A stretch of 21,251 nucleotides of DNA from a virus. The stretch spans positions 1 to 21,251 of the IMG/VR virus record IMGVR_UViG_3300048672_000201. One strand, 5' to 3'. The notes beneath the pieces are model-generated. The model was not told where the DNA came from. It saw nothing but the letters and a program-made list of their open reading frames with translations, and made no database searches. Positions 5,695 to 21,217 of the stretch are shown here, piece after piece (the stretch's first letter is position 1; each line of letters starts with the position of its first letter). Both the position numbers and the translations under genes were made by a program.

Positions 5695-6660
5695 TTAAAG
5701 GATTTGCGCAAATAAACCTGCTGCATCTTCTACCTTGCCAGTTTTAGATAACTGACGCATTGCCGCGCTTCGTTTATCTAAACTTGCAGGAGACTCGCCC
5801 ACGGAAGGCTTTAAGACCTTCTGAGGTGCAGATGCCACCTTTTTACTTGCTGCGTTTGCTTTGTTCATCATCGCTCTGTAAAGCATCGCTTCACGCGCTA
5901 AAATGATAAGTTTGTGTTCTTGTATGCTAGAAACTTGACTCTGGTCGAATCCCATCTCTAACAAGTGATTTGCAATTGCTTGGCTTTCAGCTTTAGCCTT
6001 TGCAGAGTCTTTCCATTCTGGGAGCTTGGCTAGGAGTTCTTCCTGCTGCATCCGTAAAAATTCTGACTGCGCTTTTTGCTGTTCTTGCTGGTTTAGTTGT
6101 TCGACATGCTGCAACTGTTGGAGATTATTCTGGTAAGCCGCTTGTCTCTGTTGAAAGAGGTGCTGCTGTTTCAGATATTCCACAGGATCATTGTCGATCA
6201 AGTGTTGCCAATCAATGTTTTGCTGCTGCTCAAGAGCGACTTCTAACTGTGCTTGAATCTTCTGTAGATTCTGAGCATAAGCCTGCCGTTCTTGTGCTGC
6301 TTTTTGAAGTTCTGCCTGAGCCGCTTTACGCTGCTCTGCAACTTCCATTGTCTTTTTCGTGTAGTCCGTTTGTCTTAGACCGTTCTTGTAAGCGTCTGCA
6401 AGTTCAGCTTTTGATAACTTGACCTGTTTGCCATCAACTTCAATGGTCACGCCTTCATCATCTTCTTCTGCTTGCTCGTCTTGCGGTTCAGTTTCTTCCG
6501 CTTCCGCTTTGGGATTCGTGAGATCTTCTAAGACTTCGTTTTCCAACTCTTTGGCACTCTTTTCCTCGATAGGTTGAGGATCAAGTAAAGCACCGAAGGC
6601 TTGAGCCGCGCTATCTACATTTAGCGCAGAATTACTGGATTCAGTTCCCTGATTGTCCAT
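5695..6660 (-). CDS. Capsid scaffolding protein
   Basis: Predicted 321 aa with GGAG upstream of the ATG. The N-terminal 100 residues are strongly acidic (stretches such as AEETEPQDEQAEEDDEG). Residues about 100-215 are a Gln/Ala/Leu-rich continuous coiled coil, and the C-terminus is basic with a short helix, the usual capsid-binding end of scaffolds. This composition, and the position directly before the capsid gene, identify a scaffold: it templates procapsid assembly and leaves before or during packaging. No protease signature is visible in it. Confidence 0.85.
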   Translation of the reverse strand: MDNQGTESSNSALNVDSAAQAFGALLDPQPIEEKSAKELENEVLEDLTNPKAEAEETEPQDEQAEEDDEGVTIEVDGKQVKLSKAELADAYKNGLRQTDYTKKTMEVAEQRKAAQAELQKAAQERQAYAQNLQKIQAQLEVALEQQQNIDWQHLIDNDPVEYLKQQHLFQQRQAAYQNNLQQLQHVEQLNQQEQQKAQSEFLRMQQEELLAKLPEWKDSAKAKAESQAIANHLLEMGFDQSQVSSIQEHKLIILAREAMLYRAMMNKANAASKKVASAPQKVLKPSVGESPASLDKRSAAMRQLSKTGKVEDAAGLFAQIL

Positions 6661-13153: not shown

Positions 13154-13450
13154 TTATCGTAAAAGTTTATTCTCTTGTGCCGCCATTAAATCAAACTCTT
13201 TCGGGTCGAAATATTCACCGTACGGATCGCCCAATCCTTTCTCCTTGCACCACTCGCTTAACCGTACATGCCCGTTAAATGCCCCTTGCTTGTAACCAGC
13301 ACGATGCGCAGCCGCTAGGCAAATAAAGTATCGAACCATTTCAGGGCTGTCCGTGAAAGCTGCTCGAATCTCTTTTTTGTCGTCATCGTTCCATTCGTAA
13401 TAGTCCGCAAGGTACTTTAAATCAGACGATAATCTTTCTGGATATTTCAA
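13154..13450 (-). CDS. Conserved phage protein after the helicase (TTG start)
   Basis: Predicted 98 aa. A TTG at 13450 is preferred: it overlaps the helicase stop as TTGA and lies six bases after a perfect GAGGAGGT site, whereas the upstream ATG (13495) lies deep inside the helicase gene. The sequence is helical, with RYFICLAAAHRAGYKQGAFN and RLSEWCKEKGLGDPYGE, a pattern seen in small phage proteins near replication genes. Function unknown. Coupling to the helicase suggests a replication-linked product. Confidence 0.7.
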   Translation of the reverse strand: MKYPERLSSDLKYLADYYEWNDDDKKEIRAAFTDSPEMVRYFICLAAAHRAGYKQGAFNGHVRLSEWCKEKGLGDPYGEYFDPKEFDLMAAQENKLLR

Positions 13451-14388
13451 AATTCCACCTCCTCGCTTGATATTCCTGTGGCTACATCGTAACAAATAGG
13501 ATGAGAATACCTATCTTCTAGATACTGCATAGAAGCACCATTAAACCAAAAGCGGAAAACGCCCGTATCTGTATCTTCTGCATTTCGCTGCTTTTCAAGT
13601 AAAAGAATTGCGTCAGGCTCGTCAGGCGTAGCGTTCCCTTCTAACAATGTTTTTTCTTTTTTCTTGTTGCGCCAAACAATAAACACGTTATCAACCAAGT
13701 CAGTTATCGCGCCTGTTCCTTTAATGTCAAACTTGTTTGGCTGAGTTTCTTCATCTTTTAGCTTCTTAACGTGCAATATCAAGTGAATATGGCAGCCCGT
13801 ATCATGCGCGATTGTGCAAAGCCCATTCACAAAATCTTTCTGTTCGTTGTAACTATCCTCACCAGCAACAACTTTCATCAGGTTATCAACGAAGAATTGA
13901 GTAATGCCATAAGTTGCGATTGAGTATCGAATAACCGCCAGCATGACGTTAGGCTTACAACTTCCAACATGGTCATAAATCCATAGCTTATCATTCGTCC
14001 ACTTGCCGAATTGCTCAATGTATGGAATCGTTGGTTCAAACGAACCGAACATCTGACGACTCATACGCGCCATTGTCTTAGATGGTGGCATTTCAAGCGA
14101 AGCAAGACAGCATCGTTCGCCTTGATAACAAAGACCTAAAGCGGCCTGACCTGACATCATAGACTTACCATGCCCATTGATACCAGCCCACAATGAAACC
14201 TCGCCAGTCCTAACTTGGAATGTTGAATGAGTATTTGACCACGGCAATCTCACTCGCGGTGATTCTTGAGGCTTGTGAAAATGATCTATAACATCTTGCA
14301 CCCAACTTGATGCAGGCTTAATGTCGTGCGATTCCTCCTCATTCATCCACAAATCAAGGTCAATTTCAGAATCTTTAATTAATTGCAT
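13447..14388 (-). CDS. Replicative helicase, DnaB/T7 gp4-type RecA domain
   Basis: Predicted 313 aa, GGGGGAA site before the ATG. It contains the RecA-like ATPase core only: Walker A GINGHGKS at 69-76, LASLEMP near 95-101, Walker B QFFVDNL at 164-170, a His-containing HLILHVKK near 202-209 and a C-terminal FDIKGTGAITDLVDNVFIVW near 220-239. Compared with DnaB (about 450 aa), the N-terminal primase-interaction domain is missing, as in many phage helicases that use a separate initiator or loader. It probably forms the hexameric ring that unwinds phage DNA, loaded by the upstream initiator. Confidence 0.88.
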   Translation of the reverse strand: MQLIKDSEIDLDLWMNEEESHDIKPASSWVQDVIDHFHKPQESPRVRLPWSNTHSTFQVRTGEVSLWAGINGHGKSMMSGQAALGLCYQGERCCLASLEMPPSKTMARMSRQMFGSFEPTIPYIEQFGKWTNDKLWIYDHVGSCKPNVMLAVIRYSIATYGITQFFVDNLMKVVAGEDSYNEQKDFVNGLCTIAHDTGCHIHLILHVKKLKDEETQPNKFDIKGTGAITDLVDNVFIVWRNKKKEKTLLEGNATPDEPDAILLLEKQRNAEDTDTGVFRFWFNGASMQYLEDRYSHPICYDVATGISSEEVEF

Positions 14389-14780
14389 AATTCCCCCGAA
14401 AACATCTTATTTTGCAAGCTGCACCACGGATTAGGAATCAACTTCATTTTAAAACCCATCTGAGGCTTGCTTAGAGCCTTCTCACAAGGCATAAACCAAA
14501 ATTCAGCACCTTCCTTACGGTCAATGTCCCAAACGGACAAAAACCGCGTTTTATTGCGTGCAATCGCATTTATCGTTTTTAGCCAATCAACTGATGAACT
14601 TGCATACACGCAAATATCAAGGCCGCGACACCAAGACCAATCATAATCATTTTTTGCGACTGCATAAACCGTGTGGTTCAGTTCGTCAATTCTGCCAACA
14701 AGTGACACCAATATCATTTCATCAGGCTTGTAACCACGTTTGCGGAGGTCTAATATTTTTTGTGCGTTAGTTGCCAGCAT
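14379..14780 (-). CDS. Conserved replication-region protein of unknown function
   Basis: Predicted 133 aa from the ATG at 14780, with GGTGA just upstream; a GTG at 14789 would add three residues. The stretch AQKILDLRKRGYKPDEMILV, then SLVGRIDELNHTVYAVAKND and YDWSWCRGLDICVYA, recurs in phage proteins located between initiator and helicase. No enzymatic motif is seen. The gene overlaps both neighbours (14 nt and 10 nt), so expression is coupled to replication. Role could be helicase loading or another accessory step; this is only context. Confidence 0.7.
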   Translation of the reverse strand: MLATNAQKILDLRKRGYKPDEMILVSLVGRIDELNHTVYAVAKNDYDWSWCRGLDICVYASSSVDWLKTINAIARNKTRFLSVWDIDRKEGAEFWFMPCEKALSKPQMGFKMKLIPNPWCSLQNKMFSGELCN

Positions 14781-15624
14781 TGTTTTCACCCGCTAATTCT
14801 TTAGCTTTCTGTTCTGCAATCAACTCAATTCGAGTCAATTTGCGCCACCCAATCCACTTCTCGTAAATCAAATCGCCATTTCTCTCGCCTTCTTTCCACT
14901 CGCGCTTTGTCTGCTCATTTTTTGGCAATTGCCCGACATACTGCGCGAAGTTTGTCGCGTTGAACAATGTCGCTGGGCGCAAGTATTCAACCATCTTTTT
15001 ATCATTCAGCCATTCTGCAACTTTAGAATCAATTACCTTTTTGCAGGTTTCAACTGTTGCGCCTTCTTTCAACCGAGATTGGATCAATTTTAGATTTGCA
15101 GCAACAGGCTGGAAGTCTCGATTTGCTTTCTCGTTCAGGTGTTGCAAAACAGCTACAAGGTCGTGCTTGCTCGACAAAGGTTCTATATTCTTCTCTTTAT
15201 CTCCTCTTATCTCCTCTGTATCTACAACGCTTTTGCGTTCGCCCGCGTTCGGTTGCGTTTGGTTTTCGGATTCTGAGTTATTTTTGCTATCTTCGCGCCA
15301 TTTTTTACCTCTTGATGACGAATCATCCTCGCGTTTTGGCTGTCTTTTTTCCCATCCAGTTAGATAGTCTCCTTCTAAGACTCTCCCCTGCATTGCTTCG
15401 CGAATAGAAACCACATCAGATGTTTCTATATCAAGTGCTGTTGCTACGTCCTCATCACTCCATCCTTGCGTTCGCCCGCGTTCGGTTGCGTTCGATGCTG
15501 CTGTCATCATGTGCATATAAACAGAAATAACATCGCCAATTCTCTGATTAGACTTTCTCGCAATTGTTCTCCACTTTGGATCATTTACCATATCAGTCCA
15601 TAATCTAAACCACGGATTTGCCAT
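14767..15624 (-). CDS. Replication initiator / replisome organiser (O/DnaD-like)
   Basis: Predicted 285 aa, GAAAGG upstream of the ATG. Residues 1-100 (NPWFRLWTDMVNDPKWRTIA, then GWSDEDVATALDIETSDVV) form a winged-helix-like domain seen in phage O/DnaD initiators. Residues about 95-150 are a charged, Ser/Lys/Glu-rich linker. Residues about 157-235 (VLQHLNEKANRDFQPV, LIQSRLKEGATVETCKKVI, LRPATLFNATNFAQYV) are the conserved phage C-terminal domain common to replisome organisers (the Phg_2220_C type). It likely binds the origin and recruits the helicase encoded two genes downstream. Initiators often carry origin repeats inside their linker region; no obvious iterons were seen by eye here. Confidence 0.82.
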   Translation of the reverse strand: MANPWFRLWTDMVNDPKWRTIARKSNQRIGDVISVYMHMMTAASNATERGRTQGWSDEDVATALDIETSDVVSIREAMQGRVLEGDYLTGWEKRQPKREDDSSSRGKKWREDSKNNSESENQTQPNAGERKSVVDTEEIRGDKEKNIEPLSSKHDLVAVLQHLNEKANRDFQPVAANLKLIQSRLKEGATVETCKKVIDSKVAEWLNDKKMVEYLRPATLFNATNFAQYVGQLPKNEQTKREWKEGERNGDLIYEKWIGWRKLTRIELIAEQKAKELAGENNAGN

Positions 15625-15651
15625 TTTTTTTACCTTTCATTTTTCGTAGTC

Positions 15652-15737
15652 GAAAAAAAAGGAGTTCTAAGCATCGACCCTTTTACGGATTGGCGGACAG
15701 GGACACAATAAAACCCTGCTCGATGCTTAGAACTCCT
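15652..15737 (-). terminator. Very strong terminator-like hairpin before the replication genes
   Basis: Non-coding gap 15625-15776. A perfect 18-bp inverted repeat (15660-15677 with 15720-15737) encloses 42 bases and, on the minus strand, is followed directly by eight U residues. Inside the loop, CAGGG (15698-15702) and CCCTG (15714-15718) form a second stem. Only 28 bases separate the U-tract from the replication start codon, and they are filled by the ribosome site, so no promoter can follow. This looks like an intrinsic terminator or antitermination switch. Confidence 0.8.
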
Positions 15738-15776
15738 CACTGTGATTTAATATTAGCCGCCAAGCCAATGACTTAA

Positions 15777-16001
15777 TTATACAACTGTTTTCGGTCGTTT
15801 CAACAAAATATACTGACAAACTTTAGCATGTGTGTATCTTGTTGGTGCGTCAATACGACGATGCTCAAACTCCCACCCCTGCGATTCTAGTTCCCTGATG
15901 CGCTCGCTTAGTCGCGCAATGCCAAGTTGAATAGTTGCTTGATGCTGCGTTAATCGACTGTTGCGCTTGAAATACTTTCTGAGTTCTTCGAGTTGCTTCA
16001 T
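15777..16001 (-). CDS. Small winged-helix protein
   Basis: Predicted 74 aa, GGGGGTAAG before the ATG and ATGA overlap with the preceding gene. The sequence KYFKRNSRLTQHQATIQLGI followed by ARLSERIRELESQGWEF is a compact helix-turn-helix with a wing, common in small phage regulators. The C-terminal half carries a basic strand (EHRRIDAPTRYTHAKV). It ends 40 bases before the strong hairpin at 15652-15737. Likely binds phage DNA; target unknown. Confidence 0.72.
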   Translation of the reverse strand: MKQLEELRKYFKRNSRLTQHQATIQLGIARLSERIRELESQGWEFEHRRIDAPTRYTHAKVCQYILLKRPKTVV

Positions 16002-16165: not shown

Positions 16166-16343
16166 CATAATCTCCAAACAAATCAGGCTGATCGTTGCGC
16201 ACAACTTCAATTTTCTTTTTGAAAGAATGCGAGTTTCCTAACCCGCGATTCTTTGCGCACGTTGAACCAACTGGATAACCGCCAATAAAAAACTCGGCTT
16301 TATCCAGAGGTCGATTACATATTACGCATTTAAGCTGCGTCAT
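16116..16343 (-). CDS. Small Cys-rich protein, possible zinc knuckle
   Basis: Predicted 75 aa. The ATG at 16343 overlaps the helicase-methyltransferase stop by 14 nt; longer starts lie further inside that gene. Cys6 and Cys9 (CVIC) and Cys29 (GSTC) suggest a metal-binding finger with a fourth ligand unclear; the rest is Lys/Asp/Ser-rich and probably flexible. I do not recognise a family. The ribosome site is weak, consistent with translational coupling. Confidence 0.6.
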   Translation of the reverse strand: MTQLKCVICNRPLDKAEFFIGGYPVGSTCAKNRGLGNSHSFKKKIEVVRNDQPDLFGDYDDSEKSINSGSSERDS

Positions 16344-18540
16344 CTTCTGCAAATAAATCCATATTGCGTGATTTTGCATCAGCCATGTTTTTTACCGCTT
16401 GATGATAATAACTTGGCTTTAACTCGCTACCAATGAACCTGCGCCCCATTTTGACAGCCGTATATCCTTCGCTACCAACGCCAGTAAATGGGCTAAATAC
16501 AAGGTCATTCGGTGCAGTCCACAAGTCCATAGCTCGTTCAATTACATCTAACTGTAACGGGCAAATATGCTTAACATCATCTTCTTCTCGGGCATCACGG
16601 AAATTCAAAGTGCGCGATTGGTCAATATCAAACCAAACAGGCGATGCATACCGCTGCCACATTTGCACTGGAAATTCTTCTGCTGTGTGGCTGATCGGCT
16701 TATCATTAACTCCAGGCTTGCGGAATATTACTAAGTAGTCTGCCAGACCTTGACGAGACATTGACGAATCTTTTTTGATTGTCTTATGCAATAAACCAAG
16801 TGCCTTAGTGCGCTGCATTGCCACAACTGGGTCTTTCCAAATGCATACCTCAGAATGATAGATAAATCCTGCCGCTTGATGCGCTCGTATAATATCGCCA
16901 CGAAAATCACGAATGCCGATAAATCCATCATTTGCTTTTGACGTGGTCAAGTTCATGCAATGGACAGCTACTAATCGACCTGGGCGCATCATTCGATAGT
17001 TCTGTTCAATCAAAAACTGATAATGCAATCTAAAATCATCGCTTGACTTGTTATTCCCCATATCACGGTCAGAGTTTGAATACGTGAATAGCGACTCAAA
17101 AGGAGGGCTGTAGATTGTAAAGTCGATTGAGTTATCAGGGATTTCCTTTGCAAGATCAATACAATCTGCATTGTGAATAGTCCAGTTCTTTGTTTCTGTA
17201 ACTTGGCGCACGTATTCTGTTTTTTCTTGCCCTGCACCAAAGATCTCTTTTTTCATTGATTCGCTCATATGTTTTACCATTTCTGCGCCCATTTGCGCGT
17301 TCTGTTCTTCTTTACGTTTAATATTCGCCACCACTGCGCCCTCAGATTCAGCACTAATCACATGCACGTTCACTTCATGAGTCTGTCCAAATCGGTAGAA
17401 TCGACGGATAGCCTGATAATATTGCTCCCATGAATCAGACAGCCCGACAAATGCGGTATTGTGGCAATTCTGAAAGTTCATACCTGCACCAAGAATCTTT
17501 GGCTTAGAAACCAATACGCGAATCTCATTATCAAGAAAATCATGCACTGCATTTTCCTTATGTTCGATAGAATCGCTACCTGAAACATCAACAGCGCCAG
17601 GTATTGCAACAACTAGCTTTTCAGCTTCTTCATTGCGATGACACCAAATAACCCATTGCTCATTGCTTGCATTTACAACTTCTGCGCACTTTGCAACACG
17701 GTCATCAATTGACTCTTTACGCGCTGCATTACGTTCCATTAATCCTGCAGCAATATCAGCAAATAATCCATCAGTTGATTTTGACTCTACTACATGGTCA
17801 AACATATTCAATGCAGGCAAGATGTAAGAGGAACCATCAAAGCCTAAATCAGTCGGGCTACGAATGACACAAGCCCAAGTAGATAACCACTCCCAAAATT
17901 TAGATTTCCCGTGTCCCTTCAGGACCCATGTGCCTGTATCACCAGCATCATTAATAAAAAACATCGCCAGCATTTCAGCCATGTTCATGATTCCTAAAAA
18001 CTCGGATTGATTGCCTAATTCCATAAAGTCGTTAGGGCTTGGCGTTGCAGTACAACTTAACCGATATGGAACTTTTTGACATGCAGCAATTAAAGCATTG
18101 CGGGTTTTACCATCGCGGTTTTTGATAATGCTTGACTCGTCAAGTACAACGCCATGAAAGTCATCAAGATTAAATCGGTCTAACATTTCATAGTTAGTGA
18201 TATTAATTCCTGGCTTTGCATTTTCTTGATCTCTGCAAAAATTAATCTGGATTCCAAACTTTTCACCTTCTCGCACTGTTTGTTGAGCAACGCATAAAGG
18301 CGCAACGATCAACACATCGCCATCAGTATGATCGACTACAGACTGCGCCCATGATGTTTGCATCAATGTTTTACCAAGACCAGTATCAGCAAAAATAGCT
18401 GCTCGGCCTCGCTTTAACGCCCACTTGACAATCACTCGCTGAAAATCAAATAAATTTTGATTGAGTGAGTCAAGTTCAACATCAAACCCTGCAATGATTG
18501 GCGTGATCTTTTTACGCTCTAAAAATTCATCGTAATTCAT
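16330..18540 (-). CDS. SNF2-type helicase fused to a DNA methyltransferase
   Basis: Predicted 736 aa from the ATG at 18540 (GAGAGGG site). N-terminal half: SNF2/SF2 helicase with Walker A ADTGLGKT at 51-58, DESS (motif II) at 134-137, TATP (motif III) at 164-167 and QAIRRFYRFGQ (motif VI) at 376-386. C-terminal half: amino-methyltransferase with SPPF (motif IV) at 478-481, a motif X-like CPLQLDVIERA around 660-670 and the AdoMet loop FTGVGSEG (motif I) at 685-692. The order IV then X then I marks the beta class; SPPF resembles N4-cytosine enzymes, though N6-adenine is possible. No nuclease domain is visible. Probably methylates phage DNA, perhaps to resist restriction; phage P1 DarB is a known helicase-methyltransferase of that role, with domains in other order. 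Confidence 0.88.
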   Translation of the reverse strand: MNYDEFLERKKITPIIAGFDVELDSLNQNLFDFQRVIVKWALKRGRAAIFADTGLGKTLMQTSWAQSVVDHTDGDVLIVAPLCVAQQTVREGEKFGIQINFCRDQENAKPGINITNYEMLDRFNLDDFHGVVLDESSIIKNRDGKTRNALIAACQKVPYRLSCTATPSPNDFMELGNQSEFLGIMNMAEMLAMFFINDAGDTGTWVLKGHGKSKFWEWLSTWACVIRSPTDLGFDGSSYILPALNMFDHVVESKSTDGLFADIAAGLMERNAARKESIDDRVAKCAEVVNASNEQWVIWCHRNEEAEKLVVAIPGAVDVSGSDSIEHKENAVHDFLDNEIRVLVSKPKILGAGMNFQNCHNTAFVGLSDSWEQYYQAIRRFYRFGQTHEVNVHVISAESEGAVVANIKRKEEQNAQMGAEMVKHMSESMKKEIFGAGQEKTEYVRQVTETKNWTIHNADCIDLAKEIPDNSIDFTIYSPPFESLFTYSNSDRDMGNNKSSDDFRLHYQFLIEQNYRMMRPGRLVAVHCMNLTTSKANDGFIGIRDFRGDIIRAHQAAGFIYHSEVCIWKDPVVAMQRTKALGLLHKTIKKDSSMSRQGLADYLVIFRKPGVNDKPISHTAEEFPVQMWQRYASPVWFDIDQSRTLNFRDAREEDDVKHICPLQLDVIERAMDLWTAPNDLVFSPFTGVGSEGYTAVKMGRRFIGSELKPSYYHQAVKNMADAKSRNMDLFAEDDAA

Positions 18541-18563
18541 ATAATCCCTCTCGTTATGTAAAT

Positions 18564-18609
18564 TAAATACTGCAAATAAAAATATACTGCAATATCGAAT
18601 AAATAGCAA
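18564..18609 (-). promoter_or_regulatory. Candidate promoter/operator of the helicase-methyltransferase gene
   Basis: Minus-strand boxes TTGCTA (18604-18609), 17-base spacer, TATATT (18581-18586; five of six). A 21-base block at 18572-18592 matches the early promoter block at 20567-20587 in 18 positions, and carries two TTGC half-sites. An alternative reading, aligned to the early promoter, uses TTGCAG (18587-18592) and TATTTA (18564-18569). It may be controlled by the same repressor. Confidence 0.5.
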
Positions 18610-21099: not shown

Positions 21100-21217
21100 A
21101 ACATCTAACCAGCTTGAACTAGGTCTTAGCAACCTAGAGTAGCAGCCAAAGTAAAGCCTAGCAAAAATTGTAAGTTGATAAAACCCTGCTTTATGGGGGT
21201 CAGGCTGGTTAGATGTT
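21100..21217. repeat. Long inverted repeat with inner hairpin, possible structured RNA
   Basis: The last 176 bases hold no gene. A perfect 14-bp inverted repeat (21100-21113 with 21204-21217) extends to about 18 pairs in RNA with one G-U. Inside, CTAGGT (21119-21124) and ACCTAG (21132-21137) form a second perfect stem, and ACCC/GGGT near 21182-21200 a third. Its loop shares 13 bases (21178-21190) with the loop at 15708-15720. It could be a small RNA, an origin-like or recombination element. Confidence 0.45.

Follow-up and report, generated by a model that had tools for sequence, protein, structure and literature searches.

A covarying, pseudoknotted leader RNA ahead of phage replication initiator genes and its probable role in transcription attenuation

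The DNA analysed here, referred to as the window, is the whole stretch of 21,251 nt (positions 1 to 21,251) of the IMG/VR virus record IMGVR_UViG_3300048672_000201. On its minus strand lies a gene (14767..15624) whose product is assigned to Phg_2220_C and to the PHROG replication initiation protein, and a DnaB-like helicase gene (13447-14388) is found two genes beyond it. Two exact 27-nt repeats, TTGCGTTCGCCCGCGTTCGGTTGCGTT, are located inside the initiator gene at 15233-15259 and 15466-15492, 233 bp apart; they are iteron-like and, by analogy with lambda O, could possibly mark the phage origin. Upstream of the initiator is a co-directional HTH_39 ORF that ends at 15777. At 16330-18609 (minus strand) the window also encodes a SNF2/DEAD-type helicase fused to an N6/N4 DNA methylase, relatives of which (about 52% identical) are present in EBPR podovirus 1, Alteromonas phage XX1924 and others.

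Between the HTH_39 ORF and the initiator, on the minus strand, is the strongest inverted repeat of the window, with two arms complementary at 18/18 bp (15720..15737 and 15660..15677) and 42 nt between them. The hairpin built on this stem, here called P2, had a folding z of -6.3, and none of 200 shuffles was equally stable. It is followed directly by a U8 tract (15653..15660), the first U of which pairs with A15737. A stable hairpin with a U-tract immediately 3' is the layout of an intrinsic terminator, and judged by its sequence the element would be expected to terminate transcription in vivo. The T-run (15660-15653) is 28 nt from the initiator ATG at 15624, and a likely Shine-Dalgarno sequence, GAAAGG, is found at 15633..15638. 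The first-pass annotation of this DNA had pointed to a perfect 18-bp hairpin with a U-tract 28 nt before the initiator and a co-directional gene ending just in front of it, and the sequence, inverted-repeat and folding analyses agree with that description on each point. Another 18-nt inverted repeat (21100-21117 / 21200-21217, 94%, 82-nt spacer) lies near the end of the window and does not belong to the RNA family described below.

It had also been claimed that the locus leaves no room for a promoter, and that the initiator would therefore be silent unless polymerase reads through the hairpin. The interval between the terminator and the ATG is indeed too short for a promoter, and the dependence of the downstream gene on read-through is supported, but a near-consensus promoter is present on the other side of the hairpin. 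Of all sigma70-like sites in the region scanned, the best, with 11/12 matches, lies directly upstream of the hairpin (15776..15803, minus strand; -35 TTGAAA at 15803-15798, a spacer of 16 nt, -10 TATAAT at 15781-15776), overlapping the 3'-terminal part of the HTH_39 ORF. Its predicted +1 is at about A15769, the first base of a small hairpin, P0, and the predicted RNA (15769-15653, minus strand) is 117 nt long from +1 to the end of the U-tract. Across the family promoter-like sites cluster immediately upstream of the leader RNA, and 5-8 nt separate the end of the -10 hexamer from P0. This fixed offset indicates that P0 is the very 5' end of the RNA.

The 117-nt leader can be divided into six helices, all given here in minus-strand coordinates. 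P0, the 5'-terminal hairpin (15752..15769), reads AUUGGC-UUGGCG-GCUAAU, and its loop UUGGCG (15758..15763) is the 5' half of a first pseudoknot, P1, whose 3' half CGCCAA (15690..15695) lies in junction J3/4 inside the terminator hairpin. A second pseudoknot, Px, pairs the segment CACAGUG (15738..15744), which adjoins the 5' side of the terminator stem, with UAUUGUG (15704..15710) in the loop of P3; in the window Px has 7 pairs, 3 of them G-U. P3 itself was found both by folding and in the alignment, and is made of GCAGGG (15714..15719) and CCCUGU (15697..15702). P4 is a small hairpin (15678..15689) that is weak in the window.

Viral contigs with related initiators had the same layout and a completely different stem sequence. 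A search with the sequence of the terminator arm (GGAGTTCTAAGCATCGA) returned a single match, in L015, which proved to be unrelated coding sequence. The family was collected by pattern scans of IMG/VR together with a covariance model. The first two scans gave mostly chance matches, which were rejected by inspection and later by the covariance model. At least 129 distinct members with usable flanks were obtained, nearly all on contigs of uncultured viruses, with one to three copies per phage. A second covariance model, built without the window, recovered it with a score of 67.6 bits (E about 1e-13) and had no match in 46 non-member loci. No Rfam 15 family matched the leader at or above its gathering cut-off in the window, eight loci and seven further loci, and a permissive Rfam search of the leader gave chance matches only. 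BLASTN of the window locus against GenBank phages returned nothing. A typical leader found only two records there, both uncultured and from one spring, and the one member among GenBank phage records, MW202462, is also uncultured and precedes an unannotated initiator-like ORF. The typical leader had no match in plasmids, all 14 pattern matches in GTDB genomes were due to chance, leaving no bacterial member, and none of 369 Gammaproteobacterial genomes matched. A literature search of open-access papers found no description of it. The leader represents a real and widespread RNA family that appears to be undescribed.

The structure was scored on a 55-member alignment, with shuffles and a slid structure as controls. 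In the proposed structure 95.6% of cells were paired, against 76.3% in the shuffles and 39-44% in the slid structure, and 456 cells were changed on both sides, against 119 in the shuffles. Strong covariation was seen in all six helices (P0, P1, Px, P2, P3 and P4). P0 had 97.8% of its cells paired, with double-sided changes at 4/5 pairs; the terminator stem P2 was 98.5% paired, with double-sided changes at 17/17 alignment pairs; P3 was 99.3% paired and P4 86.5%. The strand of the RNA is settled by conserved G-U pairs in P3. Most of the patterns had demanded a T-run; with one pattern that did not, the T-run was nevertheless present in 8/8 members.

Like the hairpins, both pseudoknots are supported by compensated changes. 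P1 was complementary in 100% of the 55 members, in which five compensated sets were seen (GCG/CGC, GUC/GAC, GCC/GGC, GAAC/GUUC and GACC/GGUC), and it could be fairly tested on the members collected by an IMG/VR pattern that left the P0 loop unconstrained. Second copies within a phage were found by a model containing neither P1 nor Px, and they provided further P1 sets (UGGGGA/UCCCCA, CUGCAA/UUGCAG, UUGGAG/CUCCAA, UUGGAA/UUCCAA and UUGGAC/GUCCAA). The five-pair core of Px was 94.8% paired in the alignment. The last IMG/VR pattern constrained P1 and left Px, P0 and P2 free, so that Px could be tested out of sample: among the matches listed, 90% of the 57 distinct pairs had six or more contiguous pairs, whereas 11% did so when the partners were mismatched.

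The position of the leader relative to the gene behind it is also conserved. In 82% of the 129 members a start codon is found 8-15 nt past the U-tract, against 4% at random positions, and a Shine-Dalgarno-like sequence is usually located directly 3' of the U-tract, so that promoter, leader, terminator, Shine-Dalgarno sequence and start codon follow one another in this order. Most genes behind the leader are either HNH genes or replication initiators unrelated to one another; the first 60 downstream proteins include DUF1376/primosomal and other initiator families, HNH endonucleases, Rha regulators and helicases. Across unrelated initiator families the protein changes and the leader is kept, and initiators related to that of the window also occur without it (L007-L011), indicating that the leader is a module. 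HNH endonuclease-like genes lie directly behind the leader in L082, L094, L104, L105, L107, L112, L128, L134 and others, and at several of these loci it is the next gene that resembles a replication initiator by sequence, as if HNH genes homed into the spot behind the leader.

It may be asked whether the hairpin is an ordinary terminator that insulates two units, read through by early polymerases that an N- or Q-like factor has modified elsewhere. The genes upstream are co-directional, and phage lambda does employ such a scheme. However, an ordinary terminator does not explain why the pseudoknots are conserved, why the promoter keeps a fixed place at +1 of the RNA or why the spacing to varied genes is constant, and no gene for a common factor was found. 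In 19 contigs carrying the leader no protein family was common to all, although a small diverged protein would be missed, and the two most widespread families, by eye like terminase and NinB, reached 12/19 each. We consider this explanation scarcely credible, and an N-like or zinc-ribbon partner is likewise not indicated.

A second alternative is that the terminated RNA of about 117 nt is itself the product, a trans-acting small RNA directed at host or phage RNAs, or at sister leaders via the P0 loop, in which case its placement before genes would be secondary. The compact fold with its own promoter and terminator is in keeping with this idea, as is the finding that in phages with two copies the P1 pair differed between them (7/7; L046 9525 and 6138, L090, L115, L174, G374, G385 and G395), as though to prevent cross-talk. 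Such copy-specific pairs possibly insulate the copies from each other, but the 7/7 difference is no more than suggestive, as random members often differ too and chance also fits. Moreover, the narrow spacing between U-tract and start codon is unexpected for a stand-alone small RNA gene, and the partners of P1 and Px are present in cis in every member. A free-standing small RNA therefore appears quite unlikely, though a trans-acting RNA might arise as a by-product.

The two covarying pseudoknots and the fixed distance to the start codon make an RNA switch the best explanation of the leader, as the first-pass annotation had suggested, although it had named a put-like element and the architecture is unlike put. 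The put RNA of phage HK022 is about 70 nt long, has two stem-loops and binds the zinc-binding domain of the RNA polymerase beta' subunit (PMC9378689). Both put and the leader are nascent RNAs located close to the 5' end of early phage transcripts, with few copies per phage and no phage protein evident; the leader differs in its length of about 117 nt, its six helices and two pseudoknots, and an intrinsic terminator abutting the Shine-Dalgarno sequence. If the leader worked as put does, the folded nascent RNA would bind the polymerase and, by RNA alone, carry it past the leader's terminator and later ones as well. Its position at the +1 of early replication operons would suit such a role, as would terminator-like sites 4 kb downstream (11512 and 11237) and a conserved P3 core, CUGGCGG..CCGUUCG, in most members. 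This core is nonetheless rewritten in the window and in L050, and together with the leader's size, topology and possession of its own terminator this makes put-like action quite improbable.

The same conservation could be taken as the mark of a riboswitch, in which a metabolite or protein ligand stabilises the pseudoknotted core and sets termination. The near-invariant segments (UUGG, CUGGCGG, CCGUUCG and CCAAC), the tandem G-U pairs in P3 and a terminator abutting the Shine-Dalgarno sequence, which is the usual layout of an expression platform, are all of the kind expected. Fluoride and preQ1 riboswitches are transcription attenuators with pseudoknotted aptamers, and they share with the leader the order of promoter, structured leader, terminator and Shine-Dalgarno sequence, as well as an early pseudoknot that competes with the terminator. 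In contrast to them, the leader has its putative antiterminator halves inside the terminator hairpin's own loop and precedes varied genes. No metabolic theme was seen among those genes, and the core can be rewritten provided that pairing is kept (the window, L050, the second copy of L174 and L290), which a specific pocket would not tolerate. A ligand-sensing role is thus very unlikely.

Two further comparisons were rejected. The rep-gene attenuators of pT181 and pIP501 are set by an antisense RNA and, like the leader, place a terminator ahead of a replication initiator gene, but antisense promoter-like sites opposite the leader were not concentrated among 124 members. HDV-like ribozymes have a similar strand order (P1-P2-P3-P1'-P4-P2'); the leader, however, has the extra Px helix and a long P2 that ends in a U-tract, its J4/2 is 0 nt, with no place for the catalytic C, and it had no Rfam HDV match.

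The reading we favour, and hold to be rather likely, is that the leader is a cis-acting transcription attenuator of the gene behind it, that its antiterminator is a pseudoknot and that it represents a new RNA family. The geometry of Px is central to this proposal. The gap between Px and P2 is 0-1 nt in about 98% of members, and the Px partner sits at the far end of the 17-18 bp P2 stem plus P3. Because Px ends 0-1 nt before P2, Px and the outer P2 stem should be mutually exclusive, a conclusion drawn from their adjacency and from helix length, not from a 3D model. From a distance estimate for A-form helices we infer that Px and P2 could be present together only with the outer four or so P2 pairs, or more, open, and it is the outer stem pairs that are needed for termination. 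A conserved alternative whose halves are made before the 3' arm of the terminator is best read as a cotranscriptional antiterminator.

In the attenuator we propose, transcription would begin from a constitutive-looking sigma70 promoter, with the first base of P0 as the 5' end. In the nascent RNA the P0 loop would pair with J3/4 to give P1, and the segment before the terminator stem would pair with the P3 loop to give Px, both of which can form before the 3' arm of the terminator has been transcribed. As long as this putative antiterminator of Px and P1 holds, polymerase would go on to transcribe the initiator gene; once Px was lost or displaced, P2 would zip up and an RNA of about 117 nt would be released. 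Against this model, the completed P2 stem greatly exceeds P1 and Px together in stability, so that read-through would depend on kinetics or on a factor, and Px of the window includes 3 G-U pairs. The balance might be set by some signal, such as the state of the host, a factor or the released RNA itself. In this model, read-through, what triggers it and the direction of the switch are all inferred.

In many uncultured viruses the opening step of phage DNA replication is probably under the control of this leader family. A bolder form of the proposal would describe a large undescribed family of switches that need the host polymerase alone, with the antiterminator halves within the terminator hairpin, in which P1 is a copy-specific address and released 117-nt leaders act in trans on their own operon only; this we regard as unlikely. 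If the address reading of P1 is true it would amount to a self-dosage control of phage replication, and if RNA alone does the switching the leader would join put as a second protein-free principle of antitermination, and would offer synthetic biology a supply of orthogonal attenuators. As to the hosts of these phages, a 56-kb viral contig with two copies of the leader (L045) also encodes, at 5944-6270 (minus strand), a two-piece (permuted) tmRNA of the Betaproteobacteria type, which offers a hint of host range.
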